NCBI GenBank assembly: GCA_004020315.1
Contig: SAQG01000003.1
Coordinates: forward strand, 124,001 to 188,000
Length of the DNA stretch: 64,000 nucleotides
DNA from: Mesorhizobium sp.
GTDB lineage: Bacteria > Pseudomonadota > Alphaproteobacteria > Rhizobiales > Rhizobiaceae
Reading direction: 5' to 3'
In this document: positions 4,262 to 20,982 of the stretch, piece after piece
Numbering within the stretch: position 1 is the stretch's first letter
Layout of the letters: the number at the start of each line of letters is the position of its first letter
The notes under the pieces: model-generated
Database searches by the model: none
Told to the model about the DNA's origin: nothing
The model's input: only the letters and a program-made list of their open reading frames with translations
Translations under genes and position numbers: made by a program

Positions 4262-4268
4262 CGCTATT

Positions 4269-4294: not shown

Positions 4295-4308
4295 CATAGG
4301 GGATATCA

Positions 4309-5058: not shown

Positions 5059-5125
5059 TCTGCGAACTGCCTTTCAGGAAAATTTCGGCCGGGGAGCGCC
5101 GCGAAGTCTGCGAAGCCCGGCTGAG

Positions 5126-5701: not shown

Positions 5702-5830
5702 GACTTCCTCCATCAGGCTTGCACAATGCAAGCACGTTCATCGTCGGTTCGTTGCTGGTGTGCGAGCCTCCATGGGCGGATGCCGGTGGAAGCTGGGCGG
5801 TGACTTCAGGGGTGGCCGAACGCGATCGTG

Positions 5831-6364
5831 TCAGGCCGGCAGGCGGCGGTCGTATTCTTCCCGCAGGCGGCTCCAGCCATCCCAGAACGAGGTCGGCGTC
5901 TTGCCTGCGAGACGGGCGGCCAACATGTCGAGGTGCATGTGCCAACCGGCGGTGACGTTGAGCTGGATTGCGCGTTCCGGCAGCCGGCGATGGATGACGG
6001 TGAGCAGCACCTCGCTGCCCTTCGGCTCCAGCAAGAAGGAAACCCCGCCGGTGTTTCCCCAGGTGATGGCGAGCTTGTAGGGCGCATCGAGCTCGGTGAT
6101 CCGGCTCTCCATCCGATGCTCTTCGGGAAAGCCCGCGGGGCGCTGGCCGGGCGGGTCGGTCAGCTCGTCGTTACGCCAGACCAACTCGAACGACGTGCCG
6201 GCTTTCATTTCCATCTGGCCGGCAGCCATCCATTGCCGGCGAAGCTCACTCTCGGTGAGATACGCCCAGACGCGTTCGATGGGGCCGGGCAAAAGGCGCT
6301 GGATGGTGAACGTGGCGGGCTCGGTCAGCTCGCCATAGGCTTCGATGGTTTTCATCTGGTTCAT
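5831..6364 (-). CDS. SRPBCC family protein (AHSA1 / START-like)
   Basis: A 177-residue protein of the AHSA1 branch of the START/SRPBCC fold. The family pattern is visible: TFTIQRLLPGPIERVWAYLTE at the start, then GTSFELVWRND, and a C-terminal helix GWHMHLDMLAARLAG. Such proteins have a hydrophobic ligand pocket and in rhizobia often pair with an ArsR repressor. An AAGGAG SD precedes ATG 6364, whose ATGA overlaps the ArsR stop, so the two are coupled. The ligand is unknown. Confidence 0.88.
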   Translation of the reverse strand: MNQMKTIEAYGELTEPATFTIQRLLPGPIERVWAYLTESELRRQWMAAGQMEMKAGTSFELVWRNDELTDPPGQRPAGFPEEHRMESRITELDAPYKLAITWGNTGGVSFLLEPKGSEVLLTVIHRRLPERAIQLNVTAGWHMHLDMLAARLAGKTPTSFWDGWSRLREEYDRRLPA

Positions 6365-6750
6365 TGGTCGTCTCCTTCTTTCGAGGTGGGCGATTTCCTG
6401 GAATCATCCTGGGCTTTGCGGGCGTCCTCCTCGCGAAGGAGACGTTCGAGAACGTCGAGACGGTTGGCCCAGAAGCGCTCGTAGAAGCCAAGCCATTGGT
6501 GGGCGCTGGCCAGCGGTCCGGGTTCGAGGCGGCAGAGATGTGTGCGGCCCCTCACCTCTCGACGAATTAGCCCCGCATTCTCCAGCGCCTTGATATGCTT
6601 GGAGGCGGCTGCGAGCGACATGGCGAAGGGTTCGGCGAGCTGGCTCACCGTTCGCTCGCCGCCGGCGAGGTTGCGAAGCATCCGCCGGCGGGTGGCGTCG
6701 CCAAGGGCGTGGAAAACCGCGTCGATCTGGGGTGTCTCTAATTCAACCAT
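6361..6750 (-). CDS. ArsR-family transcriptional repressor (SRPBCC-associated)
   Basis: A 129-residue winged-helix regulator: QIDAVFHALGDATRRRMLRNLAGGERTVSQLAEPF, then the recognition helix MSLAAASKHIKALENAGLIRREVRGR. It lacks the Cys-containing metal site (ELCVCDL) of true arsenic sensors, so it probably answers to an organic signal. ATG 6750 is preferred over the upstream ATG 6786 because it gives the standard family N-terminus. The start codon lies inside an inverted repeat (6741-6760), with a second copy at 6783-6798, strongly suggesting autoregulation. It forms an operon with SRPBCC and probably the DHFR-like gene. Confidence 0.9.
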   Translation of the reverse strand: MVELETPQIDAVFHALGDATRRRMLRNLAGGERTVSQLAEPFAMSLAAASKHIKALENAGLIRREVRGRTHLCRLEPGPLASAHQWLGFYERFWANRLDVLERLLREEDARKAQDDSRKSPTSKEGDDQ

Positions 6751-6800
6751 GTAGTTGAATATAGAGGCGCACTTTCTGATTGTCAACCGATTGGTTGAAT
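6741..6800 (-). promoter_or_regulatory. Twin inverted-repeat operator of the ArsR/SRPBCC operon
   Basis: Two copies of one dyad are visible. Site 1 is ATTCAACC-N4-AGTTGAAT at 6741-6760 and covers the ArsR start codon. Site 2 is TCAACC-GATT-GGTTGA at 6783-6798. Their centres are 40 bases apart, roughly four helical turns. The shared consensus TCAACC-N4-GGTTGA is a good candidate for the ArsR binding site. Confidence 0.75.
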
Positions 6801-6903
6801 GATTTTAGATGAGAGCTCCACAGGCGGCCTGCGGGGATCGAGGACATTCGGCCAGTGCAAGACCACGGATATGGTCACTGTGGCGGAAGCGAAAACGAGA
6901 CCT

Positions 6904-7701
6904 TCACTTGCCTTCGAAGAAAGTATGAATCGAGACTTCCAGCTTTTCGATGAGTTGAGGATTATGGCAGCTTCCAGCCCAGATCAGGGCGTTCAGTCTC
7001 ATATCCTTGTTGAGAAAGTTCATTTTCCGAGAATCAAGCAGGTATCCCGCGACCTCGTAGTGCCGTCCCTTGATAGCCTCGATAAGCGCGTTGTTTCTTC
7101 CGGTCTTGTCACTCAGATTCAGGTCGGCGCCATTCTCGACAAGCAATTTAACGACATCCAGATGCCCGTTCTTTGCTGCTTCAATAAGGGCCGTTCTGCC
7201 GTAGTAGTCGGCTCTTGCATTGATCTCTATTTCGGGATGTTTCACGAGGGCTAAAATAGAGGCGTAGTGGCCCTTGGCCGAAGCAAGGCTCAAAGGCGTG
7301 CTCTTCCATTTGTTTCTGGAATTCACATCGATTGCTGGCTGTTCGATCAACGCCTCGACCGCCGCGGTGCGGGCATTGAGGGCTGCGAGATGAAGGGCTG
7401 ACCAGCCGCCGCCGTCCGCCTCGTTGATATTGGCGCCGGCCGCCAATTCCGCTCGAACGGCCTCCGCATCACCCCTTTCTGCCGCGAGCAGCAGATTCGA
7501 CCAACCCCCTTCGGCTTCCAAGCTCTCGGTCAATGCCGTCGCTCCCCGAATGCTCCCGGCAAGATACCATTGTTCCGGTTCGGCCGACATCCACCGAATG
7601 ACCGGCTTCCCGCGAAAAGCCTTTCTCATTCGACGGTGTCCGGCAAATACAATCCGAGAGGGAAGAAGAAGATAGCGAACCTGAGCTTGAGCGAGAGGCA
7701 T
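6904..7701 (-). CDS. Ankyrin-repeat protein
   Basis: A 265-residue protein, nearly all ankyrin repeats from about residue 65 on. Successive units include GGWSALHLAALNARTAAVEALIE, STPLSLASAKGHYASILALV and GRTALIEAAKNGHLDVVKLLVENGADLN, with weaker copies on either side. These repeats bind partner proteins; no enzymatic domain is seen. The frame is open to 7875, but the first part looks non-coding, so ATG 7701 (weak AAAGG SD) is preferred; ATG 7629 is another option. The region before the repeats is basic and shows no clear signal peptide. Partner and function unknown. Confidence 0.7.
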   Translation of the reverse strand: MPLAQAQVRYLLLPSRIVFAGHRRMRKAFRGKPVIRWMSAEPEQWYLAGSIRGATALTESLEAEGGWSNLLLAAERGDAEAVRAELAAGANINEADGGGWSALHLAALNARTAAVEALIEQPAIDVNSRNKWKSTPLSLASAKGHYASILALVKHPEIEINARADYYGRTALIEAAKNGHLDVVKLLVENGADLNLSDKTGRNNALIEAIKGRHYEVAGYLLDSRKMNFLNKDMRLNALIWAGSCHNPQLIEKLEVSIHTFFEGK

Positions 7702-7910
7702 GATGCCTTTGGGTGCTTGATTTTGAGAGAGCGACGGCGTCCGACTGACTTCACTCGCAAAGTGGCGAGGACGCCGAAGCGGGACTGGCTGGTTGGCGGA
7801 TCGTAGACAGCAAAGCCGTCGAGCACTGGAACCGGCATTGCTCGAGCCTAGCGACCTGCAGTAGCTTGCCGGCACTCGCCGAGGCCGCTATCGGAAAGGT
7901 GAGAAGCAAG

Positions 7911-8480
7911 ATGCGAATTGGACGTCGGCGATTTCTTGTCCTGTCACTCGGTGCGGCTGCCTTCGGCAAAGCACATGCCTCCGAGTCACTCTGGGCTGCC
8001 CTGCGATCCGGGGAAGCCATTGCCGTGCTGCGCCATGCCGCGGCCCCAGGCTCCGTCGATCCGCCTGACTTCAGGCTCGGTGATTGCAGCACCCAGCGGA
8101 ATCTTTCGGAAGAAGGTCGTGCGCAGTCCCGCGCGATCGGCGACCTGTTCCGTGCGAATGGCATCTCGTCGGCAATCGTCTATTCGAGCCAGTGGTGTCG
8201 TTGCCTTGATACCGCTCGCCTGCTCGGGATCGGCGAAGTCGTGCCTCTTGATTTGCTCAATTCATTCTTTGGCGACAGTTCGGCCGCAGAGGAGCGCACC
8301 GCTGCTCTTCTGGCCTGGCTTCGCGAGCAGCGTTTCGGCGAACCTGCCGTCCTTGTCACGCATCAGGTCAACATCACCGGTTTGACCGGCGAGGTGCCGG
8401 ACAGCGGCGAAATGATCATCGTCCGTATTCATGAGGCTGACCCCGTGCAGGTCATCGGGCATGTTGCCACGCCGGCTTGA
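7911..8480 (+). CDS. Exported histidine phosphatase family protein
   Basis: A 189-residue protein with an N-terminal export signal (RIGRRRFLVLSLGAAAFG, Tat-like twin Arg). The phosphatase core has the RHG-type catalytic motif as VLRHAAAPG (Arg41, His42), then CSTQRNLSEEGR, the SSQWCRCLDTARLL helix, and the second catalytic His in VLVTHQVNITGLTG. Branch-1 histidine phosphatases hydrolyse phosphate esters through a phosphohistidine. ATG 7911 puts the twin-Arg signal at the N-terminus; the frame is open further upstream. Substrate unknown. Confidence 0.82.
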   Translation: MRIGRRRFLVLSLGAAAFGKAHASESLWAALRSGEAIAVLRHAAAPGSVDPPDFRLGDCSTQRNLSEEGRAQSRAIGDLFRANGISSAIVYSSQWCRCLDTARLLGIGEVVPLDLLNSFFGDSSAAEERTAALLAWLREQRFGEPAVLVTHQVNITGLTGEVPDSGEMIIVRIHEADPVQVIGHVATPA

Positions 8481-8567
8481 GCATCATGGCCTTCGACCCC
8501 ATTTCGTGCAGCATCGCTTCAGTCGTGGAACAACGACGTGCGAGGAGAGATCAAAGGGAGTGATCGC

Positions 8568-8960
8568 ATGGCTATCGATTTCAACCATACAATACTGCCG
8601 GCCCACAACAGTGAGGCGTCGGCAAAATTCCTGGCGGAAATGCTTGGCCTTCCAGCCCCGAGGCGCTGGGGGCCTTTCCAGATGGTCACGACCGAAAACG
8701 GTGCCAACCTCGACTACATGGATACCGACGGCGAAATCAGGCCGCAGCATTACGCCTTCCTGGTCAGCGAAGCCGAGTTCGACGAGATCTTCAGCAGGAT
8801 TCGTGAGCGGGATCTCCCGTACTGGGCCGACCCTGGCCGGACGCTGCTGGGCGAGATCAATCACCACGACGGCGGCCGCGGTGTTTATTTCGAGGACCCG
8901 AACGGTCATCTTCTCGAGATCATCACCCGTCAATACGGCAGCGGCGGATGGAACCCGTGA
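8568..8960 (+). CDS. VOC (glyoxalase/bleomycin-resistance) superfamily protein
   Basis: A 130-residue single-module VOC protein. It has the FNHTILPAHNSEASAKFLAEMLGL opening, a central HYAFLVSEAEFDEIFSRI segment and the C-terminal GVYFEDPNGHLLEIIT motif with the Glu typical of the metal site. VOC enzymes use a divalent metal for isomerase, lyase or dioxygenase reactions, or bind drugs. A GGGAG SD precedes ATG 8568; the upstream ATG 8538 lacks family support. It stands alone between the phosphatase and an MFS remnant. Confidence 0.85.
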   Translation: MAIDFNHTILPAHNSEASAKFLAEMLGLPAPRRWGPFQMVTTENGANLDYMDTDGEIRPQHYAFLVSEAEFDEIFSRIRERDLPYWADPGRTLLGEINHHDGGRGVYFEDPNGHLLEIITRQYGSGGWNP

Positions 8961-9088
8961 TCTCGGTGACGTAGCCAGGCGGCGGACACTCTGCGAACTG
9001 GTCTCATGGCGGAACCTGAACGGTGATCTTGATCGATGAATAATAGGCGGCGACGTTCGGAAATAACGAAGCACCTCTTGGGCCGACC

Positions 9089-9424
9089 GTGCTTGGCATT
9101 CTTGCAAACCGCACCTATCGCCATCTCTTCGCGGCTCAGATGATCGCACTGATCGGTACCGGGCTCGCGACGGTAGCTCTCGGGCTGGGCTTGACTTTCG
9201 GACTATCGGCGCCATTTGTGATCCTCGCCTGCATCGCGGGCGCTGCCCTGGTTACGGCGTTCCTGGTGTGGCCAGCTTCCGATCCAGAAGTCCTTGAACA
9301 CCAGCATCGCGGCCTTCCCGAGCATGATCCGCATTGGGCTGAGGGATCGGACCATTTCGGACATCGCCATACCCACGCCTTTGTAATCGATAAGCTGCAT
9401 CCGGAATGGCCGCGCGAGCCTTGA
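9089..9424 (+). pseudogene. MFS transporter remnant with large internal deletion
   Basis: The 111-residue frame begins (GTG 9089) as the first helix of an MFS permease, LANRTYRHLFAAQMIALIGTG. After about 32 residues it passes directly into what looks like the last helix and hydrophilic tail of the same kind of protein (FVILACIAGAALVTAFLVWP, DPEVLEHQHRGLPEHDPHW, HTHAFVIDKLHPEWP). Full MFS proteins are about 400 residues, so roughly 300 codons seem to have been lost in frame. The His-rich tail and the NicO-type gene 26 bases downstream suggest the parent handled metal; this is inference. Confidence 0.65.
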
Positions 9425-9450
9425 GCGGCAGCGAGTGATATTGCCCCGGC

Positions 9451-10164
9451 ATGCTGCAGACAATCATCGATGTTCAACGCGACATTTATCTGGCCTTCGC
9501 CGGGCACATAAAGACGTTCGCCCAAGACGGCAATTGGGGGGCACTCGCGGCCTTCCTGCCGATGGGCATCGTGTTCGGGGCAGTGCATGCAATGACGCCC
9601 GGGCACTCCAAGTCGGTGCTGGCGACCTATCTGACCGGATCATCGGCAGGACTCGGGCGGAGCCTGACAGTCTCGCTTGTGCTTTCCTTCACCCACGTCA
9701 CTTCAGCGGTGCTGATTGCACTGCTGTCGCTTCCGCTGGTGTCGGTCGCGCTCGGAAGCGTCGGCCGCGCACCGATGCTCGAAGACGTCAGCCGAGGCCT
9801 TCTTGGCCTCATCGGCGCGTGGATGCTTTGGCGAGCGGTCCGGCATCCGCTCCATGCACATGGCGACCAGGAAGGTGTGGCCGTCGGGATCATGGCCGGC
9901 CTGAACCCTTGTCCGCTGACGCTGTTCGTCATGACATTCGCGATGATCCGAGGCGTGCCGGAGGCGGGCATCGCGTTCGCAGTGACCATGATGGCGGGTG
10001 TAGCGTTCACCCTCTCGGTCGTCGCCCTCGTCACAGTGTTCTTCCGCAACCAGCTGGCCAATCTGCTGAGGTCGCGTCCAAAGCTCGTCGCGGTCGTGAC
10101 CCGCTCGATCGAAGCGGTCGCCGGGACAATCCTCGTCGCGGTCGCCCTCCATGAAATCCTGTGA
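9451..10164 (+). CDS. NicO-family nickel/cobalt permease (RcnA-like)
   Basis: A 237-residue membrane protein with about six hydrophobic segments. It carries the NicO-family signatures HAMTPGHSKSVLATYL (near residue 47) and GIMAGLNPCPLTLFVMTFA (near 150), with a His/Asp stretch (HPLHAHGDQEG) between. RcnA-type members export Ni2+/Co2+; others import. The central His-rich loop is much shorter than in E. coli RcnA, so direction and metal cannot be fixed. It lies 26 bases after the MFS remnant and could be its former operon partner. Confidence 0.85.
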   Translation: MLQTIIDVQRDIYLAFAGHIKTFAQDGNWGALAAFLPMGIVFGAVHAMTPGHSKSVLATYLTGSSAGLGRSLTVSLVLSFTHVTSAVLIALLSLPLVSVALGSVGRAPMLEDVSRGLLGLIGAWMLWRAVRHPLHAHGDQEGVAVGIMAGLNPCPLTLFVMTFAMIRGVPEAGIAFAVTMMAGVAFTLSVVALVTVFFRNQLANLLRSRPKLVAVVTRSIEAVAGTILVAVALHEIL

Positions 10165-10200
10165 GGAAAACGGGTATCCGGCGGCAGGCGGACGGACCGA

Positions 10201-10737
10201 TCATTCTTCAGCGATCGAACTCGCCACGATCACGCCCTCTTCTTCAGTTGCAGCCGGAAACTTGAGGTTGACGAATTGCTTGCGATCGCCGGCAATCAGG
10301 ATGTAGAGCCGCGATACCTGCATTGCGCTGCGCTCCTCGGATATCTTTTCGGCATCGGTGCGGGTAAAAAAACTCTTCAGGAACGATTCGACATGAATGT
10401 CGCCGATGACGACGGTGCATGTCTGCACAGCCTTGCCGTTCAAGGTGGCTTTCGTGACGCCGACTAATGTCCCCGCCGGCATGGCGTCGCCTTTCGCCCT
10501 CCAACCTCGCATCGCCTGCGGATTGTCGAGCGGGGCCAGCTTGGCAAAAGCATCTTCGGCCATCGGCGCCCATCCGAGCCTGCTGGCGGCAGCAGTGGTT
10601 CGGTCGAAATCCGGGCCTTGGGCCAGACAGGTGCTGTGAAAGCTCTCCACCGCCCGCTCGACATCCACGCTGCCATGCACCGGCAGTGATATCAAGCAGA
10701 GGGCCGTCGCCCCCAATATTTTGATGCCATGGGACAT
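10201..10737 (-). CDS. Hypothetical exported protein
   Basis: A 178-residue protein that starts with a Sec signal peptide (MSHGIKILGATALCLISLPVHGS). The mature part opens with VERAVESFHSTCLAQGPDFDRT and contains two Cys residues (in STCLAQ and in QTCTVVIGD) that could form a disulphide. I do not recognise a named domain, though the pattern is like small exported proteins of unknown function in rhizobia. ATG 10737 (AAAGG upstream) fits the signal peptide better than ATG 10761. It converges on the NicO-type gene with only 36 bases between stops. Confidence 0.7.
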   Translation of the reverse strand: MSHGIKILGATALCLISLPVHGSVDVERAVESFHSTCLAQGPDFDRTTAAASRLGWAPMAEDAFAKLAPLDNPQAMRGWRAKGDAMPAGTLVGVTKATLNGKAVQTCTVVIGDIHVESFLKSFFTRTDAEKISEERSAMQVSRLYILIAGDRKQFVNLKFPAATEEEGVIVASSIAEE

Positions 10738-10893
10738 TTGGCCTTTCGGCCCTTCGCTCATCGAGCAAGGCGGCAGACGTCAACGAAGACATGACCGAAG
10801 TTGTTCCGTTCCCTTTGACCAATCCGAGCGCACTTGCCTCAGGCGGCCGATTGGCTGGCCTGGTTCACCGCGGGACGCGGGATCGAGGCTGCA

Positions 10894-12108
10894 TCACCGT
10901 TCCTCCGGCGGCTTGAGATGCCGGAACTGCATCAGCAGCAGCAGATCGTAGGTGATCTTCAGGGCACCGCAAATGAGGAGGGGCCAAGCCCGGAACGAGG
11001 CAGCAAACAGGGCGCCGGCCAACGCAGGACTCGCTGCGGCGGCCAGACTGCGCGGGACCGATGTGAAGCTCGCGGCCGCCGCCCGCTCCGCCTCGGTAAC
11101 GACGGCCATGACGTAAGACGATCGCGTCGGGACGTCCATCTGCGAAAGCGCGGCGCGGATCAACAGCAAGCCGAGCGCCAGAGGCAGCGTGGGCGCAAGC
11201 GCCGCCAGCATCAGAGCAATGCTGGACGGAATGTGGGTGAACACCATCGTGTTAATGAGTCCGATGTGCCGGGACAGCCAAGCAGCAACGGGAAATGAGA
11301 ACGCCGAAAGCACACCGGACCAGAAAAAGAAAAAGCCCGCTTCCGAGAGCGACAGGTCGAATTCTTCGAAAAGCCACAGCGCAAGCAGCGACTGGACGAC
11401 AAAGCCTCCGGCGAAAGCATCGAGGCTGAAAAGCGCCGCAAGCTTGAACACAATATTGCGCGAGGGGCCGAGCGCGGACGCGGTGCCGGAGGCCGACGCT
11501 GGACGGCGCTGCGGGATCTGCGCGTAGATGAAGCCGCCGAGCAGGCCCAGAAACGCATAGAGCACGAACATCGCCTTGATGCCGCTGAGTTGATCGAGGC
11601 CGACTGAAACCAGAAGATCAGGTGTTGCCGAAGCAAGCGCGCCAACCGCACCTGCCAGCGCACCCACAAGGCTGTAATGCGCGAACATCTTGGTCCGCGC
11701 GGCATCGGTGATTTCACGAGTGAGCACGGCATGCTCCAATGGCACGAATACGCTGACACTGCCGGCCGACGGGTTAATGGTGCCTGCGAACGCGATCACC
11801 AAAAGCAGCACGTAGTCGTGGACCACAGCAAAGGCCACGCCAGTGGCGACCATCAGACTGGCGGCGGCAAGCAGGAGTTGGCGGTAGTCGCGTCGGGCGC
11901 CGAGGAACCCGACGCCGATGGTCAAGAGCGCCGAACCGAGAAGCGAGGCGGTTGCGATGATGCCGACCTGTAGCGGAGTAAAGCCAAGTGCGAGGAGATA
12001 GACCGGCAACAAAACGGCCACGAAGCCGTCGCCCATGTCGCGCAGGGCACGCGCCGTAAAAAGAAAGGTCGTCGAATGGACCCGCAGCACTGATCTGCCT
12101 GCCCTCAT
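10894..12108 (-). CDS. MFS transporter
   Basis: A 404-residue, 12-helix major facilitator. The N-half opens with FLFTARALRDMGDGFVAVLLPVYLLALG and has the loop GFLGARRDYRQ in the place of the A motif; the C-half starts near FKLAALFSLDAFAGGF. ATG 12108 gives a normal N-terminus. The frame stays open to 12255, but that stretch is a remnant of a rhodanese gene read in another frame. The remnant's stop lies just upstream, so this MFS gene probably once followed an ArsR-rhodanese gene in one operon. Substrate unknown; toxic anion or drug efflux is possible. Confidence 0.85.
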   Translation of the reverse strand: MRAGRSVLRVHSTTFLFTARALRDMGDGFVAVLLPVYLLALGFTPLQVGIIATASLLGSALLTIGVGFLGARRDYRQLLLAAASLMVATGVAFAVVHDYVLLLVIAFAGTINPSAGSVSVFVPLEHAVLTREITDAARTKMFAHYSLVGALAGAVGALASATPDLLVSVGLDQLSGIKAMFVLYAFLGLLGGFIYAQIPQRRPASASGTASALGPSRNIVFKLAALFSLDAFAGGFVVQSLLALWLFEEFDLSLSEAGFFFFWSGVLSAFSFPVAAWLSRHIGLINTMVFTHIPSSIALMLAALAPTLPLALGLLLIRAALSQMDVPTRSSYVMAVVTEAERAAAASFTSVPRSLAAAASPALAGALFAASFRAWPLLICGALKITYDLLLLMQFRHLKPPEER

Positions 12109-12118
12109 CACCTGCGTG

Positions 12119-12243
12119 AGCTCCCGCGTGTTCTGTTTCAGGCGGCCGTTTCGACCGGCAGGCCGGCGGCCTTCCATTCGGGATAGCCGTCCTCGAGCCG
12201 ACGGACGAGAAAACGCCGCTCCCGCAAGGCGGCGACCGCTTCG
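12119..12243 (-). pseudogene. 3' fragment of an ArsR-rhodanese gene (direct repeat copy A)
   Basis: This stretch closely matches 14341-14465, the 3' end of the intact ArsR-rhodanese gene, by eye about nine bases in ten. On the minus strand it still encodes LVRRLEDGYPEWKAAG and the terminal PVETAA before a stop. The similarity breaks off sharply at about 12243, so only the last 36 or so codons plus a short 3' flank survive. It is not a functional gene. Confidence 0.85.
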
Positions 12244-12306
12244 GCGCGCCATCAATCTACCCTACAGCACGCCCGAACGGCACGGCAGCCGACGAAGCTT
12301 TCCGAG

Positions 12307-13290
12307 CTACGACGACTGCCGTCTTCGGGCGGGCAGGCCGCTGTGGTGCTTCTGCGCAGTGTGCTCCACTCCTGCAAGCCGATCGAAGAGCCACGCCACA
12401 CCAGCATCCATCATCGCGACCTTGGGAGCGACGGCGTTGAGCCGGAAGCCGGGCAGCGGCAATGGGGCATCGAGGCTCAGGACACCGAAACGCGCCGCAT
12501 GCATGGTGACGAACCGCCGCGGCAGGGCCGAGATGAGGTCGGTCTCGGCGATGACCGCAAGCGCAAACATGAAGTTCGGAACAGTCAACGCAATCCGTCG
12601 CGCCCGGCCCAGCTTCGCCAGCTGTTCATCCACGAAGCCATAAGGATCGCCGCTGTGCGAAACGACCAGATGCTGCATGTCGCAGTATCGCTCCAGGGTT
12701 GGATCACGCGCGAACGGATGTCCAAGGCGCATGGCAATTACAAAGTCTTCTTCGTAGATGCAGCGCTTTTCGAAACGAGGCGGGATGTCATCGGACGGAA
12801 TGATCGCGATGTCGATGGCGTGCGCCTCGAGTTCGGCAATCGCGCTTCGCCAGACGCGGGCTGGCGAGGGCAGGACCTGACGCACGCTGACGTCGATGCG
12901 TGGCGCAATCCGGCTGAGTTCGGCGAGAAGCGGGCGCAGGATCACGGCTGAGACACCGTCCGGCGCGCCGATTGCGAACCGGCGCATCGCCGTCAAGGGG
13001 TCGAAGGGTGCGGCAGTCGCCATGACGCTGCGCACGCGCGCCAGAACGTCGGCGATCGGCGCGGCCAGTTCCGTCGCACGGGCCGTCGGCACCACGCCCT
13101 TGGGCGTTCTTAGGAACAGCGGATCATTGAGGAGCCGGCGCAACCGACCAAGCCCGTGACTGACAGCCGATGGCGTCAGATTAAGCCGGTCCGCCGCCCG
13201 GCCCACGTGGCCCTCTTCGAGCACGGCCTCGAAGAGGACGAGGAGATTGAGATCGGTGCGAGAAAGATCAATTTCGTTCAGCATATTCAT
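12307..13290 (-). CDS. LysR-family transcriptional regulator
   Basis: A 327-residue LysR regulator. The N-terminal winged helix reads DLSRTDLNLLVLFEAVLEEGHVGRAADRLNLTPSAVSHGLGRLRRLLNDPLF, and a LysR substrate domain follows from about residue 95 (FAIGAPDGVSAVILRPLL). The opening resembles the NodD/LinR branch. It is divergent from the small monooxygenase-like gene at 13387 across a 96-base gap, the standard arrangement for LysR control of that gene and of the NTF2-like gene after it. The inducer is unknown. Its 3' end abuts the rhodanese repeat. Confidence 0.92.
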   Translation of the reverse strand: MNMLNEIDLSRTDLNLLVLFEAVLEEGHVGRAADRLNLTPSAVSHGLGRLRRLLNDPLFLRTPKGVVPTARATELAAPIADVLARVRSVMATAAPFDPLTAMRRFAIGAPDGVSAVILRPLLAELSRIAPRIDVSVRQVLPSPARVWRSAIAELEAHAIDIAIIPSDDIPPRFEKRCIYEEDFVIAMRLGHPFARDPTLERYCDMQHLVVSHSGDPYGFVDEQLAKLGRARRIALTVPNFMFALAVIAETDLISALPRRFVTMHAARFGVLSLDAPLPLPGFRLNAVAPKVAMMDAGVAWLFDRLAGVEHTAQKHHSGLPARRRQSS

Positions 13291-13306
13291 GAAATCATAT
13301 CACTGG

Positions 13307-13328
13307 ATTCATCGAACTCAACGTGAAA
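13307..13328. promoter_or_regulatory. Possible LysR binding site between divergent genes
   Basis: In the 96-base gap between the LysR gene and the monooxygenase-like gene, ATTCA (13307-13311) and TGAAA (13324-13328) form an imperfect dyad around a T-N11-A type core. This position is typical for LysR autoregulation, but the match is weak. Confidence 0.35.
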
Positions 13329-13386
13329 TTCTGCCGGCTGAGCGGCGCGTCGCTCGGACGAACGGAGCCTTGAATGGGAAACGGCC

Positions 13387-13656
13387 ATGTCTGTGATGAT
13401 GATTTCCGAAGTCGGCGGACAGTCGCCGCAAGGGTATGACGGTATGCTCGCCCTCGTCGGTGATGCTTTGAGGCAGGCGCCGGGCTTCATCATGCATGTG
13501 TCGCACCCGGTGGCAGCCGGCTGGCGGATTGTCGAGGTGTGGAACTCCCAGGAAGACGCGACGCGCTTCTTCGCTGCTCATATCGCGCCGAATCTGCCGG
13601 ATGGCATTCGGCCGAAGCTGTCCTTCCAGCCGCTGCACAGTCTTTTGAGGCCATGA
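13387..13656 (+). CDS. Small ABM-like (antibiotic biosynthesis monooxygenase fold) protein
   Basis: An 89-residue protein with the dimeric alpha-beta barrel pattern. It opens with a strand, then a helix GYDGMLALVGDALRQAPGF, then IMHVSHPVAAGWRIVEVWNSQEDATRFF, the usual core of ABM-domain proteins (cofactor-free monooxygenases and heme-degrading relatives). It is divergent from a LysR gene and followed after 99 bases by an exported NTF2-like protein. The role is unknown. Confidence 0.7.
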   Translation: MSVMMISEVGGQSPQGYDGMLALVGDALRQAPGFIMHVSHPVAAGWRIVEVWNSQEDATRFFAAHIAPNLPDGIRPKLSFQPLHSLLRP

Positions 13657-13755
13657 CGGAAATGCCGGCCGGTTGAGGGATCTGAGATCGCATCGGCTCG
13701 ACGGATGTCAGCAGGCTGCGGCTGCGGATCGGCACAAACATAGGAGAAATTTCTC

Positions 13756-14298
13756 ATGCCAGTTTCACGACGTTCAGCACTCGCTGCAGCGGGCGCCGGT
13801 CTCGCGTCGCTCGGGATCACGAAAGCTACAAGCGACTCTGCCTTTGCCCATCAGGTCCCCATCGCCGACGAGGAGGTCGCCACGCTCATCAGACAGACCG
13901 CCGAAGCCAACGCGGCGCTGATGCGCGGCGACATCGCCCAGTACCGTGCGTTGATTACGCTCACCGATGACTTCACGCTGATGTCGCCTTTCGGCGGGAC
14001 GCCGACGCGCGGCGTGGACATGACGAGCGAACGCTGGGAGGCAATGGGGCGTTTCTTCAGGAACGGCACGCTGGAACAAGAGCTAGTCCAAGCCTACGCC
14101 GTGGCCGACATGGTGGTTCTCGCGGTCATCGAACGCGGCCGCGGCGAAGTCGGCGGTCTGCCGGCCCAGGGCTGGCCGCTGCGCGTCACCTTGGTCTATC
14201 GCCGCGAAGGATCCGAATGGCGGCTCGCGCACCGACACGCAGACCCGCTCGTTCGGGGTATCAGCCTGGAGCAGGCGGCCGCGCTGGCCCGCAGCTGA
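13756..14298 (+). CDS. Exported NTF2-like (DUF4440/SnoaL-type) protein
   Basis: A 180-residue protein. The N-terminus PVSRRSALAAAGAGLASLGI is a Tat-like signal. The rest is an NTF2-like cone: VATLIRQTAEANAALMRGDIAQYRALITLTDDFTLMSPFGG, then the strand pair LVQAYAVADMVVLAVIERG and WPLRVTLVYRREGSEWRLAHRHADPLV, a common DUF4440 ending. Such proteins bind small ligands or act as isomerases. It is probably co-transcribed with the ABM-like gene under the divergent LysR regulator. Confidence 0.75.
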   Translation: MPVSRRSALAAAGAGLASLGITKATSDSAFAHQVPIADEEVATLIRQTAEANAALMRGDIAQYRALITLTDDFTLMSPFGGTPTRGVDMTSERWEAMGRFFRNGTLEQELVQAYAVADMVVLAVIERGRGEVGGLPAQGWPLRVTLVYRREGSEWRLAHRHADPLVRGISLEQAAALARS

Positions 14299-14340
14299 AG
14301 GTCCACGCCAGACCAGCGCCGCAATCTCCCGACGCTCTCA

Positions 14341-14465
14341 AAGCTCCGCGCATTTTGTTTCAGGCCGCCGTCTCGACCGGCAGGCCGGCGGCTTTCCATT
14401 CGGGATAGCCGTCCTCGAGCCGACGGACGAGATAGCCCCGCTCTCGCAAGGCGGCGACCGCTTCG
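14341..14465 (-). repeat. Direct repeat copy B: 3' end of the intact ArsR-rhodanese gene
   Basis: This is the partner of 12119-12243, in the same orientation. The pair brackets a segment of about 2.1 kb carrying the LysR, ABM-like and NTF2-like genes. The match includes about 20 bases beyond the rhodanese stop codon. Confidence 0.8.
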
Positions 14466-15028
14466 AACGACAGAACGCAGTAGGGGCCGCGGCAATAGGC
14501 GATCACTTCCCGATCTGCCTTTAGCTCGCCCAAGCGGCGCTCCAGCTCGGCCAGCGGGATGTTTAGGGCGCCTGGAAGATGTCCGACCGCGAACTCGTCC
14601 TCTGGCCGCACATCGAGAACCGTGACCATGCCGTCATGCAGCATCGAGACGAGGTCATCTCGCGACACGGGTTCCATCGCATCGCGAGCGCGGAAGTAGT
14701 CGGACATGACGCGCCCGATTTCAGCCATGTTTCGCTCGCCGACGCGGCCGAGCGCCTTGATCAGCGCCACCACCTCGGCGTCGCCGGCGAGGCTATAGAG
14801 CACGTGCTTGCCGCGGCGCTGCGTCTCGACGAGGCGCGCCCGCCGCAGGATCTGCAGGTGGCGCGACGTGTTGGCGAAACTCAGATGGGCTCGCGCGGAG
14901 AGGTCCTCGACGCTGCGCACGCCTTGCGCGAGATGCTCCAGAAGCTCGAGCCGGTGCGGATGGCCGAGCGCCTGAGCCACTTCGGCAAGGCTCGCGTAGA
15001 TCGCCTGTTTCGGTCCGGTGCTTGACAC
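14360..15028 (-). CDS. ArsR-family regulator fused to a rhodanese domain
   Basis: A 222-residue two-domain protein. Residues 1-100 are an ArsR winged helix (EVAQALGHPHRLELLEHLAQGVRSVEDLSARAHLSFANTSRHLQILRRARLVETQRRGKHVLY). Residues 120-222 are a rhodanese domain with LDVRPEDEFAVGHLPGALNIPL and the active-site loop AYCRGPYCV holding the catalytic Cys. Such fusions are thought to sense reactive sulfur or oxidants. The start is GTG 15028. A perfect 8-bp inverted repeat lies directly upstream (15045-15070), and an MFS gene is divergent beyond it, a likely target. Confidence 0.9.
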   Translation of the reverse strand: MSSTGPKQAIYASLAEVAQALGHPHRLELLEHLAQGVRSVEDLSARAHLSFANTSRHLQILRRARLVETQRRGKHVLYSLAGDAEVVALIKALGRVGERNMAEIGRVMSDYFRARDAMEPVSRDDLVSMLHDGMVTVLDVRPEDEFAVGHLPGALNIPLAELERRLGELKADREVIAYCRGPYCVLSFEAVAALRERGYLVRRLEDGYPEWKAAGLPVETAA

Positions 15029-15044
15029 GGCTTCTGCTCAGTGG

Positions 15045-15070
15045 AACATTCAGCGGAATGATTGAATGTT
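15045..15070. promoter_or_regulatory. Inverted-repeat operator upstream of ArsR-rhodanese
   Basis: AACATTCA (15045-15052) and TGAATGTT (15063-15070) are perfect reverse complements with a 10-base spacer, centred about 30 bases upstream of the GTG start. It is a good candidate for the ArsR-rhodanese binding site, perhaps also controlling the divergent MFS gene at 15296. Confidence 0.7.
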
Positions 15071-15295
15071 TCTAGCCCTTCATAGCCAGGCGCGCAAGAC
15101 CGTGATCCTTCGCCAGTTCCCTCAAAGTGATCCAGTCGGCGCCTCGCACCTGTTCGGCTGCGGCAACGAAGCCCTCCGGATCGGGGACGAAGCCGCGTTC
15201 ATCTGCTTCATGCTCGCCGAGATTCCGCCGGCTCGGCGCGAGGCTGCTGCGCTCCGGGCCGCCAATTCCGTCCTGGCTGCGGCGGTGGCCTGACA

Positions 15296-16528
15296 ATGGA
15301 CGAAGCGGCATCGGTTCCCGTCAAGCTCGGCCTCAGGGAGAACTGGCCGCAATTCGCGCTGCTCGTCGTGATCAACGCCTTTGTCGGCGGCATGGTCGGC
15401 ATAGAACGAACGGTGGTGCCGCTGATCGGATCGGAGGAGTTCCACTTCAGGTCGACGACGCTCATTGTCTCCTTCATCGTCAGCTTCGGCGTCGTCAAGG
15501 CGCTAGCCAATCTGGTCTCGGGCCAGCTTGCCGACGCGTGGGGCCGCAAGCGCGTGCTCGTTTTGGGATGGCTGGTCGGCCTGCCGGTGCCGTTCATGAT
15601 CATCTGGGCGCCGACCTGGGAATGGGTGATTGCGGCCAACGCATTGCTCGGCATCAACCAGGGGCTCGCCTGGTCGATGACAGTGATCATGAAAATCGAT
15701 CTCGTCGGGCCGAAGTCGCGCGGCCTTGCCGTCGGCCTCAACGAGTTCGCCGGCTATCTCGCCGTCGGGGTGACGGCGTTCCTGACCGGCTATCTCGCCT
15801 CGCAATACGGACTTCGGCCGGTGCCGATCTATCTCGGCATCGGCTATGCGGTCCTCGGCGCCGCACTGTCGGCCCTGCTCGTGCGCGACACGCGGGACCA
15901 CGTTCGGCTGGAGACTTCATCCCACGCGCAGCAGCCCGCACCGATCAGCTTTCGGCAGGTCTTCGCGCTCACTTCGTTCGGAGACCGCAATCTGTTCGCC
16001 GCCTCGCAGGCCGGCCTCGTCAATAATCTCAACGATGGCATGAGCTGGGGCATTTTCCCATTGTTCTTCGCTTCCTTCGGCCTCGGCGTCGAGCGCATCG
16101 GCATCCTCAAGGCGATCTATCCCGCGACATGGGGTGTCTTGCAGATCGCCACGGGCCCCTTGAGCGATCGCTGGGGGCGCAAGGGCCTGATCGTCGCCGG
16201 CATGTGGGTTCAGGCCGCCGGTCTGTTTCTCACCGCGGCGACGCGCCAGTTCGAGTGGTGGATCGTCGGCAGCCTTCTGCTCGGCCTCGGCACGGCGATG
16301 GTCTACCCCAGCCTGATCGCAGCCGTCTCCGATGCCTCGCATCCGACCTGGCGCGCCCGCTCACTCAGCGTCTACCGGTTCTGGCGGGATCTCGGCTACG
16401 CGATCGGGGCGCTCTCCGCCGGCCTCATCGCCGACAGCTTCGGGCTGTCATGGGCGATCGCGTCGATCGCCGCGCTGACATTTCTCTCAGGGGCAATCGT
16501 CGCTGTCGTGATGCGAGAGACGGTCTAG
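15296..16528 (+). CDS. MFS transporter
   Basis: A 410-residue, 12-helix major facilitator. The A motif appears as GQLADAWGRKRVLVLGWL in the first half and is repeated as GPLSDRWGRKGLIVAGM in the second. The N-terminus MDEAASVPVKLGLRENWPQFALLVVINAFVGG and the helix-1 pattern (FVGGMVGIERTVVPLI) are typical of MFS genes adjoining ArsR or rhodanese genes. It is divergent from ArsR-rhodanese with 267 bases between them, which contain the operator and no convincing gene. Substrate unknown. Confidence 0.88.
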   Translation: MDEAASVPVKLGLRENWPQFALLVVINAFVGGMVGIERTVVPLIGSEEFHFRSTTLIVSFIVSFGVVKALANLVSGQLADAWGRKRVLVLGWLVGLPVPFMIIWAPTWEWVIAANALLGINQGLAWSMTVIMKIDLVGPKSRGLAVGLNEFAGYLAVGVTAFLTGYLASQYGLRPVPIYLGIGYAVLGAALSALLVRDTRDHVRLETSSHAQQPAPISFRQVFALTSFGDRNLFAASQAGLVNNLNDGMSWGIFPLFFASFGLGVERIGILKAIYPATWGVLQIATGPLSDRWGRKGLIVAGMWVQAAGLFLTAATRQFEWWIVGSLLLGLGTAMVYPSLIAAVSDASHPTWRARSLSVYRFWRDLGYAIGALSAGLIADSFGLSWAIASIAALTFLSGAIVAVVMRETV

Positions 16529-16582
16529 CTGGCGCATGACTCCGAAAATCGGAATCGATTTTCGCAAAGGATCATGCGCCAG
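16529..16582. repeat. Palindromic intergenic repeat (copy 1)
   Basis: CTGGCGCATGA at the left is matched by its reverse complement ending at 16582, with inner arms around GAAAATCGG/ATCGATTTTCG. It lies directly after the MFS stop and before the convergent secDF end, where it may act as a bidirectional terminator. Relatives are listed at 25198, 45130, 54051, 56793 and 62026. Confidence 0.8.
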
Positions 16583-16631
16583 ATCAAAATGCTACGGCAG
16601 ACCCAAAGAAATGGCGCCGCCGATCGTTGCG

Positions 16632-19187
16632 TCATAAGGCCTGTCGCGCCGGCGGCTCTTTCGCCACTGCGCCTTCCTCTTGGCTGAGGGCGCCCGGCCG
16701 CAGCTTGAACAGGATCAGCAGCGGCCCGGCGACGAAGATGGAGGAATAGGTGCCGGCGAGGATGCCGAAGATCATCGCGACCGTGAAGGACTGGATGACC
16801 TCGCCGCCCCAGATCGAAAGCGCCGCCAGCGCAAACAACGTGGTCACGCCGGTCAGGACCGTTCGCGCCAGTGTCTGGTTCATCGACAGATCGAGCAGCT
16901 CGGCAATCGGCATCCTTTTATAGCGGCGCAAATTCTCGCGGACCCGGTCATAGACGACAACTGTATCGTTGATGGAGTAGCCAACAATGGTCAGGATCGC
17001 GGCTATCGAGGTCAAATTAAACTCTATGCCCGCGACGACGTAGAAGCCGATCATCAGGATCACATCGTGGAACGTCGAAATGATGGCGCCGAGCCCGAAC
17101 TGCCACTCGAACCTGATCCAGATATAGACGAGCATCGCCAGCAGCGAGGCGAGCACGCCCATTGTGCCGTTAAACGCGAGTTCGGAAGACACTGTCGGAC
17201 CGACAACCTCGATGCGGCGGAACTCGTAGTCGGACTCGAGCGCGCTTCTTACTTTCCCAACGGCGGACTGTTCGGCAATGTCGCCGCCCCCCTGGGTGCC
17301 GATGCGGATCAGCACGTCCCGGGTCGAGCCGAACTCCTGCACCTGTACTTCGCCCAGTTCGAGACCTGTCAGGCGCTCGCGGATGTCGCCGATGTCGGCC
17401 TGCTGGCCCTTCGCCTGCACCTCGATGCTCGAACCGCCGCGAAAGTCGATGCCGTAGTTCATGCCGACAGTGAAGAACAGCACGGCCGAAGCGATCGACA
17501 ACAGCAAGGACAGCGTGAAGGCGTACTTTCGGAATGCCATGAACGGCACGCGCGTGTCGTCGGGCACCAGCCGCATGACACCGCTGGGCATCGTTTTCGG
17601 GCGCTGCCGGCGAAGCCAGAACGCGACCAGCCAGCGCGTCAGCGTAAACGCCGTGAACACGGTGGTGACGATGCCGATGGCGAGGGTGACGGCAAACCCC
17701 TTGATCGGCCCTGAGCCGAGGAAGAACAGGATGACGGCGGCAATCAGCGTCGTCACATTGGCATCGACGACGGTCGCCAGCGCCTGTCTGAACCCGGAAT
17801 CCATCGACTGCACGATCGAGCGCCCTTGGCGGTTCTCTTCGCGGACGCGCTCGAAGATGATGACGTTGGAATCGACCGCCATGCCCATCGTCAGCACGAT
17901 GCCGGCGATGCCGGGCAGCGTCAGCGTCGCGCCGAGCACCGACAGGATGGCGATGATCAGTGCGACGTTGGCCAGGAGCGCGATATTCGCGATCAGTCCC
18001 AGTCGCCCATAGGCGAACAGCATGAAGCCGACGACCAGCAACCCGGCGATGATTGATGCGAACTGGCCCGCCTCGATTGAATCGCTGCCGAGGCTCGGGC
18101 CGACGGTGCGTTCTTCGACGATGGTGAGGTCAACAGGCAGTGCGCCGGCGCGCAGCAGGACCGCAAGATCGTTCGCGCTCTCCACCGTGAAACTGCCGGA
18201 TATCTGCCCGGTGCCGCCCAGGATCGGTTCGCGGATCTGAGGCGCGGAGATCACCTCGTTGTCGAGGATGATCGCGAACAGGCGCCCGACATTGGCCTGA
18301 GTAGCCTGACCGAAGCGGGTGGCGCCGCGGCTGTCGAAGCGAAACGAGACCACCGGCTCGTTAGTGCGCTGGTCGAAGGTGGCCTGCGCGTCGACGAGAT
18401 TTTCGCCGGAGACGATGATCCGGTTCTCGATCAGATAGGGGACCCGCGGCTCGTCCGTCGAATTCAACACCGTCGAGCCCGCCGGCGGGCGGCCGGAGAT
18501 CGCCTCCTCGACCGGCATCGACTGGTCGACCATCTGGAAGGTCAGCTTCGCGGTCTGTCCGAGGATATCCTTCAGCCGCTGCGGATCCTGCAGGCCCGGC
18601 ACCTGGACCATGATGCGCTCAGATCCCTGGCGCTGGATGATCGGCTCGGTCGTGCCGAGCTCGTTGACGCGCCGGCCCACCACCTCGATCGATTGGGTCA
18701 GCGCCGCGGCGAGACGGTAGTCGACCCCGGCTTCGGTCAGCGTGAAACGCAGCAGACCCGGTTCCGGCTCGGTCATCTCCATCTCGGTCACCGAGCCGCT
18801 CATGAAAAGCCCGGTCGAGATCGGCTGCGTCAGTCTTTCGAGCGCGCTCTTCGCAGCATCGATCTGGCCTTGGTCGCGAATGCGGACCTGGATGGAATTG
18901 GCGGTGCCGGCAAGGCCGGTATAGCCGATCTGGGCATCGCGCAGCGATGTGCGGACCTCGTCTCGCGCCGCTTCGAGGCGTTCGTTGGCGAGGTCTTGCC
19001 GATCGATCTGGAGCAGGATGTGCGAGCCGCCCTGCAGGTCTAGGCCCAGCGTCAGCTGCTGCTTTGGCAGCCAATTCGGCAGCGATGCCAGAGTGGAGGC
19101 GGGAACCAGATTGGGCGCTGCGTACAGGACACCGGCCAGGACCGTCAGCCAGATGAGAATGGTCTTCCAGCGCGAAAAATGCAGCAT
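16632..19187 (-). CDS. secDF: Protein translocase subunit SecDF (fused SecD and SecF)
   Basis: An 851-residue membrane protein. The SecD half starts with a single helix and the GLDLQGGSHILLQID motif, has a large periplasmic region, and ends with a five-helix block containing GMAVDSNVIIFERVREE. The SecF half begins near residue 545 (FRKYAFTLSLLLSIASAVLFF) and carries GIDFRGGSSIEV and GYSINDTVVVYDRVREN. SecDF uses the proton gradient to help SecYEG export proteins. Gene fusion is normal in many alphaproteobacteria. Nothing looks broken. Confidence 0.97.
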   Translation of the reverse strand: MLHFSRWKTILIWLTVLAGVLYAAPNLVPASTLASLPNWLPKQQLTLGLDLQGGSHILLQIDRQDLANERLEAARDEVRTSLRDAQIGYTGLAGTANSIQVRIRDQGQIDAAKSALERLTQPISTGLFMSGSVTEMEMTEPEPGLLRFTLTEAGVDYRLAAALTQSIEVVGRRVNELGTTEPIIQRQGSERIMVQVPGLQDPQRLKDILGQTAKLTFQMVDQSMPVEEAISGRPPAGSTVLNSTDEPRVPYLIENRIIVSGENLVDAQATFDQRTNEPVVSFRFDSRGATRFGQATQANVGRLFAIILDNEVISAPQIREPILGGTGQISGSFTVESANDLAVLLRAGALPVDLTIVEERTVGPSLGSDSIEAGQFASIIAGLLVVGFMLFAYGRLGLIANIALLANVALIIAILSVLGATLTLPGIAGIVLTMGMAVDSNVIIFERVREENRQGRSIVQSMDSGFRQALATVVDANVTTLIAAVILFFLGSGPIKGFAVTLAIGIVTTVFTAFTLTRWLVAFWLRRQRPKTMPSGVMRLVPDDTRVPFMAFRKYAFTLSLLLSIASAVLFFTVGMNYGIDFRGGSSIEVQAKGQQADIGDIRERLTGLELGEVQVQEFGSTRDVLIRIGTQGGGDIAEQSAVGKVRSALESDYEFRRIEVVGPTVSSELAFNGTMGVLASLLAMLVYIWIRFEWQFGLGAIISTFHDVILMIGFYVVAGIEFNLTSIAAILTIVGYSINDTVVVYDRVRENLRRYKRMPIAELLDLSMNQTLARTVLTGVTTLFALAALSIWGGEVIQSFTVAMIFGILAGTYSSIFVAGPLLILFKLRPGALSQEEGAVAKEPPARQAL

Positions 19188-19333
19188 GTTCTTGTCCGTT
19201 CAGCGCATATCGGGCGGAAACCGCCTCCGACAAGAGCTTTGGCGTTCCGATCGGCGAGCAACTCGAAGAGAGCCCGAACGGAACGCGATGTGAAAGGTTT
19301 GGGAGTCGGGAGGCCGCGGTCGCGCGGCCAGGA

Positions 19334-19768
19334 TCATGCCGTGAGAAGCGGAGGCGCGCGCGCATCAAAGGCGCGGATCGGCGACAGTTCCGGCCGGTCC
19401 TCAAACCCTATACCAAACGGTGCGGCTGACGCGGTTTCGAGCGGCAGGCGCAAATCCGGGATGATGCAAAAGGGCTTGCCGTTTCCCGCAATGGCAGGCG
19501 TTCCCGTCTTGAAACGGGAAGTCTCAGCTGCAACACGGCGGGCAATGTCGCGGACAAGGATGGTCGCGACCGGCTTGGACGCAGCGAGCCTTATTTGCTC
19601 TTTGGCTACATCCTGTCCGGCTTGGACAGCTGTGGTCGCAGGAATGGTCCAGATCAAAAAGAGGAGCGAAGCGAGCAGCCGCAGACCAGCACCCGCGCTG
19701 AGCAGAACGCCGCGCCTAGCCCGTCTTCGGCCGCTTCGTCTCATCTCATCGGTACGGCTCTCATACAC
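19334..19768 (-). CDS. Hypothetical protein with N-terminal membrane segment
   Basis: A 144-residue frame (136 if ATG 19744 is used). A very basic start (RRSGRRRARRG) precedes one hydrophobic stretch (LLASLLFLIWTIPATTAV), which could be a signal anchor, then a soluble part of about 90 residues with one Cys. I recognise no domain. No good SD is seen for either start. It is upstream of secDF in the same direction, 146 bases away. It is kept because the composition looks coding and no better frame covers the region. Confidence 0.45.
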   Translation of the reverse strand: MYESRTDEMRRSGRRRARRGVLLSAGAGLRLLASLLFLIWTIPATTAVQAGQDVAKEQIRLAASKPVATILVRDIARRVAAETSRFKTGTPAIAGNGKPFCIIPDLRLPLETASAAPFGIGFEDRPELSPIRAFDARAPPLLTA

Positions 19769-19901
19769 TGCGATTAATACGCTTTCGCCTTCGTTGCCTC
19801 AGTAAGCGGCAGGCCGCACTCTTAGTCTAACTATAGCACTTGCGTTGCGAATTGAAGCGCACCTTTCACGGACTAAAAGCGTCGGCCGATCGATTGGCAG
19901 C

Positions 19902-20378
19902 CTACCGCTTCTCGATCAATCGGACATAGTTTTGCAGGATGCTGCTCCAGCCACGATCGGATTCGAAGATCTCTCGCGCCGCTTCGCCGGTCGCGCCCAT
20001 GTTCTCAAGCCGACGATGCTCGAGCTCGACGCGAGTCGCGTTCCCACCGGCCTCGGAGAACTTGATCTCGACTTCGGTCAGCAGCGACGGATCATATTGC
20101 CAGTCGGCGCGAATCCGCCATGCCAGGACGATGCGGTTTGGCGGTTCCCACGCCAGCACTTCGCCCCAGTCGCATTCCGTCCCATCCTCGCCGGTCTCAA
20201 ACCAGCGGCCGCCTGCCTTTGGCTCGATGGTCGCGCTCTTGAGTGCGGACTTGCCTATGGAGTAGGACGCCGGCCACCAACGTCCGAACCCGCTCGTGAA
20301 CACTTCAAACGCCGTGGCAACCGGCACGTCCACGGTGACCGACTTGCGCACAGGTGCTGGTTTAATGATCGCCATCAT
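19902..20378 (-). CDS. SRPBCC family protein (AHSA1 / START-like)
   Basis: A 158-residue AHSA1-type protein: VRKSVTVDVPVATAFEVFTSGFGRWWPASYSIG at the start, then GGRWFETGEDGTECDWGEVLAWEPPNRIVLAWRI and the C-terminal helix SDRGWSSILQNYVRLI. This is the WW-containing subgroup often next to ArsR regulators. AAGGAG precedes ATG 20378, and the gene overlaps the end of the ArsR gene by 17 bases, so translation is coupled. The ligand is unknown. It has the same arrangement as the pair at 5831-6750. Confidence 0.9.
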   Translation of the reverse strand: MMAIIKPAPVRKSVTVDVPVATAFEVFTSGFGRWWPASYSIGKSALKSATIEPKAGGRWFETGEDGTECDWGEVLAWEPPNRIVLAWRIRADWQYDPSLLTEVEIKFSEAGGNATRVELEHRRLENMGATGEAAREIFESDRGWSSILQNYVRLIEKR

Positions 20379-20691
20379 TATTTTGCTCCTTGGCTTTGTT
20401 GACCTCGTTTCGGAAGGCGTCGAGCGCGTTCCCCCACATTTGGTCGAGCCAGGCACGCATCTCGCCAAGACCGTGAGGGTCGACGTGATAGATGTTGCTG
20501 GCACCGCGAGGCTCGGCGCGGACCAGCCGCGCCTCCCTCAGCACCTTCAGGTGATGAGAGATCGCGGGCTGAGACACAGGCAGGGTCCGAGCGAGGTTCG
20601 CTACCGAACGCGGCTCGTCGGCCACAAGCTCGAATACCTTTCTGCGCGTGGGATCGGCCAGCGCGACCACTCCTGCATAATCATAAACCAT
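20362..20691 (-). CDS. ArsR-family transcriptional repressor (SRPBCC-associated)
   Basis: A 109-residue winged-helix protein: VVALADPTRRKVFELVADEPRSVANLARTLPVSQPAISHHLKVLREARLVRAEPRGASNIYHVDPHGL. It has no metal-sensing Cys pair. The start ATG 20691 sits inside an inverted repeat (20680-20701) with a third half-site upstream, implying that it represses itself and the overlapping SRPBCC gene. It is the second such module in the window but belongs to a different ArsR subgroup from the one at 6361, and its operator sequence differs. Confidence 0.92.
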   Translation of the reverse strand: MVYDYAGVVALADPTRRKVFELVADEPRSVANLARTLPVSQPAISHHLKVLREARLVRAEPRGASNIYHVDPHGLGEMRAWLDQMWGNALDAFRNEVNKAKEQNNDGDH

Positions 20692-20718
20692 GGCTTATGA
20701 TAAGCACAGATTTATGAT
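20680..20718 (-). promoter_or_regulatory. Operator over the ArsR start codon (ATCATAA/TTATGAT)
   Basis: ATCATAA at 20680-20686 and TTATGAT at 20695-20701 form a perfect dyad with an 8-base spacer, spanning the ArsR ATG. A further TTATGAT half-site lies at 20712-20718. This is a likely autoregulatory site. Confidence 0.72.
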
Positions 20719-20982
20719 CAAGGCAACCTCGGCTGTTTGCGAAGAAGAGCAGAGGGCGGCGTATTCTCTCCCTATTCAAGCCTCATGCTGCTCCCTTTAA
20801 TTGGGGGCACAGGGAAGGAGACCGCTCCAGAGCCCCTTCTCACATACAGCTTGAACGACTTGTCGAGCCGTATACGAGTATACGAGTCCGTCATCTACAT
20901 AGCTTTGTGACCTTTGTTGGCAAATGCGCACCGAGATTCGGCCCCTGCTGCCAGCATCCCTGCGACCATTTTGGAGACGCTC

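Follow-up and report, generated by a model that had tools for sequence, protein, structure and literature searches.

This locus raises the question of why the 3′ end of an ArsR-rhodanese gene occurs in it twice, on either side of a LysR-type regulator and two small genes (the cassette). The window, by which we mean the whole 64,000-nucleotide stretch of Mesorhizobium DNA analysed, lies on contig C144 of a 6.8-Mb draft genome in 209 contigs (G000). The first-pass annotation took the segment between the copies for a 2.2-kb insertion with duplication, or for a circle with a related rhodanese end that had integrated by single crossover. Comparison with relatives leads us, with moderate confidence, to a different reading, in which two alleles of a single variable stretch of the chromosome meet end to end in the window. 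The features discussed are listed in Table 1.

Table 1. Features of the locus, with positions in the window.
Feature	Position	Strand	Basis
MFS1 transporter, starting 29 bp after the stump; two-lineage mosaic in this contig	10894..12108	-	PF07690; site comparison
Left repeat copy, ArsR-rhodanese stump (residues 189-222)	12124..12243	-	repeat search, translation comparison, alignment
Non-homologous junction: rhodanese interior left, LysR 3′ tail right; common to G040	12243..12244		relatives' alignments
LysR-type regulator, likelier resident cassette	12307..13290	-	PF00126, PF03466; relatives' loci
89-aa ABM-like protein, likelier resident cassette	13387..13656	+	weak match only; relatives' loci
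SnoaL/DUF4440 protein, 180 aa, likelier resident cassette	13756..14298	+	Pfam match; relatives' loci
Right repeat copy, 3′ end of intact rhodanese gene	14346..14465	-	repeat search, alignment
Intact ArsR-rhodanese gene, 222 aa	14360..15028	-	PF01022 + PF00581 above cut-off
MFS2 transporter, rhodanese companion in relatives that have rhodanese	15296..16528	+	Pfam match; relatives' loci
secDF, fixed right flank of variable interval	16632..19187	-	Pfam match; relatives' loci
Suspected false join; first 55 bases of C185 identical to 9000-9054, first 55 of C167 identical to 10910-10964	9000..10964		contig overlaps

A repeat search returned the two copies as a direct repeat pair of 120 nt with 92% identity and a start-to-start spacing of 2222. 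The pair had been described as near-copies of 125 bases in the same orientation. The orientation stands, and blastn extends the pair to 125 columns at 91.2% identity; the outermost positions, 12119-12123, match poorly, and homology fades about 14 nt past the rhodanese stop codon. As had been recognised, each copy holds ArsR-rhodanese 3′ codons. The right copy is the end of a complete 222-residue gene, and the left copy encodes only residues 189-222, with its stop codon at 12138-12140, which disposes of the idea that the copies belong to two full-length paralogues. In a self-comparison of window positions 3001-22000 this pair was the sole repeat listed of at least 35 bp and at least 75% identity, so that chance is ruled out as an issue, and the whole genome contains only these two close copies. 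The copies differ at 14 columns, and neither is uniformly the odd one against the alleles of relatives: rare letters occur at 12211-12215 in the left copy and at 12130, 12144 and 12150, among others, in the right. The bases past the stop codon of the stump are of the type found in two relatives, G097 and G032, and unlike those of the eight other alleles compared. The repeat appears to be a likeness between two alleles of one gene rather than a product of insertion.

The genes between the copies had been annotated as a LysR regulator, an ABM-like protein and an NTF2-like protein. The first is confirmed and the third is a SnoaL/DUF4440 protein; the ABM match is below threshold (E 0.13, 12.8 bits against a cut-off of 23.1), and the 89-residue protein has no match at E 0.001. 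Of 68 loci retrieved with the LysR sequence, from rhizobia as well as cyanobacteria and other Proteobacteria, 62 have a divergent LysR-SnoaL gene pair. The cassette resembles these in that its LysR and SnoaL genes are divergent, and differs in having the ABM-like gene between the two. That gene is found in seven of the 68 loci, five of them in Mesorhizobium, and in locus L127 it lies outside the LysR-SnoaL pair. By its gene content the cassette seems ordinary. The LysR proteins of G145 (L038 11118-12014) and G040 (L043 9771-10742) match at only 76% and 69%, with DNA about 91-94% identical, which suggests frameshifts in both genes. Elsewhere in the window's genome, a second secDF-like region (C143:52422-56157) is 73% identical to the secDF gene of the window. 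The gap between MFS2 and secDF contains an interspersed hairpin element (16524-16599; folding energy -34.6 kcal/mol, z -5.7) with at least 31 other matches of about 81-94% in this genome.

We searched 146 genomes of the genus at a match threshold of E 0.001. Some part of 12100-12260 was matched in 102 genomes, some part of the cassette (12244-14340) in 42 and some part of MFS1 in 51, many of the matches in each case being short or distant. Gene-by-gene comparison covered the 16 loci with the best repeat matches and 13 loci of the best cassette or MFS1 carriers. Read in the direction of the window, G097 and G032, which are two Mesorhizobium species, have MFS1 – rhodanese – MFS2 – secDF without the cassette, and they are 90.8% and 90.3% identical to the window from 10886 and 10888, respectively, to 12243. 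This is an empty site, and it bears out the suppositions that the MFS gene probably once followed the rhodanese gene and that recombination has rearranged the neighbourhood. G145 has SRPBCC – LysR – ABM – SnoaL – rhodanese – MFS2 – secDF without stump or MFS1, and its cassette match ends at window position 12244. In G143 and G014 the order is SRPBCC – LysR – ABM – SnoaL – secDF, without rhodanese or MFS2. G087 and G034 retain LysR near secDF, have lost ABM and most or all of SnoaL, and are without rhodanese. G037 has SRPBCC – rhodanese – MFS2 – secDF. The order in G040 is SRPBCC – NicO ... MFS1 – stump – LysR – SnoaL remnant – secDF, the intact rhodanese gene having been lost. A phosphorylase-superfamily gene with a shared N-terminal sequence lies behind rhodanese in G140, G089, G142, G074 and G052 (the PF01048 profile was tested on the G140 protein only). 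The alleles together show no fewer than four different neighbours on the 3′ side of rhodanese. The relatives do not all keep one arrangement, as old vertical descent would have it: among the loci laid out, the junction of the window recurs only in G040, which has no intact rhodanese gene.

At this junction, 12243/12244, the candidate parents (G097/G032 on one side and G145 on the other) have no more than a few bases in common. It is no assembly error, because G040, the assembly of another species, shares it; G040 also has the same joint on the SRPBCC side. In G000, with C167 taken as the left side (see below), and in G040 the insert lies in the spacer between SRPBCC and LysR, both joints agree between the species, and about 40 bp of the spacer is missing relative to G145. 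No target-site duplication was seen at either outer joint of the insert. A search for terminal inverted repeats gave only short partial inverted pairs, none of them at the repeat borders, and a Pfam scan of the nine proteins of 9451-19187 detected no integrase, transposase or other recombinase domain. Three short matches (35-49 bases, E 2.6e-4 to 5.3e-4) that span the junction point in G125, G088 and G006 were taken for chance.

The relatives bear on which of the two pieces is the newcomer. In a species tree calculated from a 7-kb rpoB region of 18 genomes, G000 is sister to G040, G087, G034, G014 and G143 (96/94); G145, G089, G037 and G140 come next (97/96 for the ten), and G097 and G032 lie outside. 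The cassette, whole or partial, is present at this locus in seven of the ten species of the group and in both halves of it. Gene trees at the locus, from which rows covering less than 60% of the gene were dropped (leaving 15 rows for secDF, 11 for rhodanese, 11 for MFS2 and seven for LysR), are weakly resolved for G000; the LysR tree, unrooted and of modest support with its seven rows, agrees in topology with descent along the species tree. Given that the cassette lies beside rhodanese in G145 and between the same flanks in G143 and G014, we infer that it is likelier the resident, and the stump with MFS1 the newcomer, than the reverse. The resident allele would have consisted of SRPBCC, then LysR – ABM-like – SnoaL, then rhodanese – MFS2, then secDF. 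The incoming piece would derive from an allele with MFS1 directly behind rhodanese, bringing MFS1 and the 3′-terminal 120 bases of the rhodanese gene of that allele; the NicO/MFS/HupE cluster was probably carried along with MFS1 in this lineage. Entry would have been at the short convergent SRPBCC/LysR spacer, with loss of the missing bases and a non-homologous joint at 12243/12244, and MFS1 would have exchanged its place behind rhodanese for one 3′ of LysR. None of the compared loci was found to have the arrangement of the donor allele, an intact rhodanese gene next to MFS1 and its NicO cluster, and G097 and G032 have no NicO beside MFS1. The insert is missing from four close relatives of G040 (G087, G034, G014 and G143), which implies its loss in them or its movement between lineages. 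The MFS1 gene of G040 is closer to those of G097 and G032 (93.7-93.8%) than to that of the window (89.1%), which would not fit simple shared descent unless the window MFS1 is a hybrid.

The reverse order of events seems unlikely, although it deserves serious consideration. Here the ancestral order would be rhodanese-MFS1, and incoming DNA with MFS2/rhodanese-SnoaL-ABM-LysR would have pushed the old stump and MFS1 downstream, through a homologous crossover on the rhodanese side and, at the other end of the incoming DNA, an illegitimate joint within the 3′ end of the old rhodanese gene. Such a displacement, by homology-facilitated illegitimate recombination, yields the same product, and the pairing of the G000 and G145 LysR genes (91/93, unrooted tree) speaks for it, but it has to contend with the wide distribution of the cassette in the species group just described, and it leaves two things to coincidence: that the LysR tail ends about 40 bp before the SRPBCC start of G145, and that SRPBCC still lies beyond the insert. 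A precedent for displaced gene ends has been proposed for Vibrio type VI arrays (PMC5361080). Returning to the preferred reading, with the cassette as resident, the system with which we compared the locus is again homology-facilitated illegitimate recombination (PMC3240628; PMC5361080). The likeness consists in a single non-homologous junction next to a gene common to both parents and in a displaced gene end left as a scar; an end without parental homology is found at 12243/12244. The difference is that the likelier polarity in the window is insertion beside a resident cassette, and that no homologous end was identified in the alleles compared.

Left of about 10909, the contig is likeliest to have been falsely joined through a second copy of MFS1. 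Window positions 1-9054 align collinearly at about 2.66 Mb in G087; in G037, 1-10682 together with MFS1 do so at about 3.02 Mb. Further right, 12288-64000 in G087 and 14356-59527 in G037 are collinear, with gaps, with about 0.40-0.45 Mb; for G037 the comparison covered part of this region. The two halves of the window are 2.2-2.6 Mb apart in the same orientation on one contig in each genome (6.65 Mb in G087, 7.32 Mb in G037). Position 9054 runs directly into C185 sequence in all six genomes laid out (G140, G040, G089, G143, G032 and G087; in G143 for the first 115 bases only); in G037 it leads instead into sequence like 9055-10682 plus MFS1. C185:1-2400 was matched in 15 of 15 relatives searched, in nine of them, which include these six, from its first bases. 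The match of C167 to the window (C167:1-79) continues to 10886 with one mismatch at 10909, and C167 corresponds to the secDF-locus flank of nine compared loci (G037, G140, G145, G089, G040, G143, G014, G034 and G087); it is probably the true left neighbour of MFS1. C167 and C185 (C185:1-55) each meet the window by exactly 55 bases, and exact overlaps of this size are a residue of short-read graph assembly at unresolved repeats. As a control, the opposite end of C185 has an exact 54-base overlap with the starts of other contigs, C165 and C159 among them.

On the simplest reading, this genome would have two MFS1 genes, one per locus, which the assembler merged. The mosaic nature of the window MFS1 is in line with this: 41 sites distinguish the G097/G032/G040 type from the alternative one, and the window has the first type at 14 of them, the second at 25 and neither at two. 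The first type accounts for 3/3 sites at 10918-10972, 5/7 at 12049-12086 and 6/31 between. None of the contigs of this genome was found to carry the other flank that a second full-length MFS1 copy should have, and a false join has to blame this on a short piece omitted from the assembly. Three further observations concern the same stretch. An ORF of 111 residues at 9089-9424 combines the two ends of an MFS gene whose middle is missing here (439 residues in C167:3088-4407); 9000-9054 are the last bases of a cytochrome c gene that is intact in C185:5-328 (PF00034); and G037 has a 57-base cytochrome c remnant at the equivalent place.

It is improbable that the join of 9054, 10909, MFS1 and the stump is a real rearrangement, or one carried by part of the culture. 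The segment 9055-10682 is genuine DNA and adjoins MFS1 in G037 (86%), and the difference at 10909 implies that two such MFS1 ends exist; yet a simple exchange between loci so oriented and so far apart would split off a megabase circle, and the exact 55-base overlaps are as expected of unresolved repeats in a short-read assembly. More doubtful still is a reversible version, in which two near-identical MFS1 genes more than 2 Mb apart recombine and cells switch between two chromosome arrangements; MFS1 would then lie behind different genes in each. If the join is false, as we prefer, the assembly probably brings two distant loci within 3 kb of each other, and gene-neighbour inferences across MFS1 are unusable.

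The least probable reading of all is the original one of a mobile cassette or an integrating circle: direct repeats do bracket the cassette and an empty site exists, but LysR-ABM-SnoaL occupies this locus with no repeats around it in G145, G143 and G014 (and parts of the block lie between these flanking genes in G087, G034 and G040), the nine scanned proteins contain no recombinase domain, the repeats are 8-9% divergent, and none of 150 matched plasmid records covers 80% of 10886-14465. Among the best 10 of these records, MFS1 alone (78-79%) is found on Sinorhizobium fredii plasmids and LysR/SnoaL alone (about 74%) on Rhizobium plasmids, and a plasmid origin of the block was rejected. An integrase-mediated island at a gene 3′ end is similar in that a direct repeat of the gene end flanks accessory genes; the window differs in that 9451-19187 contains no integrase gene, the repeats are only 92% identical over 120 nt, and the genes occur without repeats in relatives. 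The lack of a transposase domain, target-site duplication and terminal inverted repeats sets the locus apart from insertion sequences and transposons. We also considered whether MFS1 clusters are habitually flanked by duplicated gene ends and rejected this: in 24 loci self-compared (at least 35 bp, at least 75%) no repeat brackets MFS1. Two of them do contain direct repeats: L034 has one of 55 bp at a distance from MFS1, and in L054 a 610-bp repeat lies to one side of MFS1 and both copies of a 71-bp repeat lie to the other. Literature searches that named the genus yielded one paper, which was unrelated.

In G097 and G032, MFS1 starts 29 bp behind the rhodanese gene, the same distance as from the stop codon of the stump in the window, and the two genes are probably co-transcribed. 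In the window, MFS1 lies about 200 bp behind LysR. A pattern scan of the minus strand between LysR and MFS1 listed no terminator-like site, so that read-through from LysR into MFS1 may be possible. The locus is an ordinary bacterial recombination scar in a variable locus. If our reading is right, it shows a rhizobial chromosome stacking alternative alleles of a variable interval, with a gene stump kept as the scar and a transporter gene shifted so that it follows a LysR gene instead of an ArsR-rhodanese gene.
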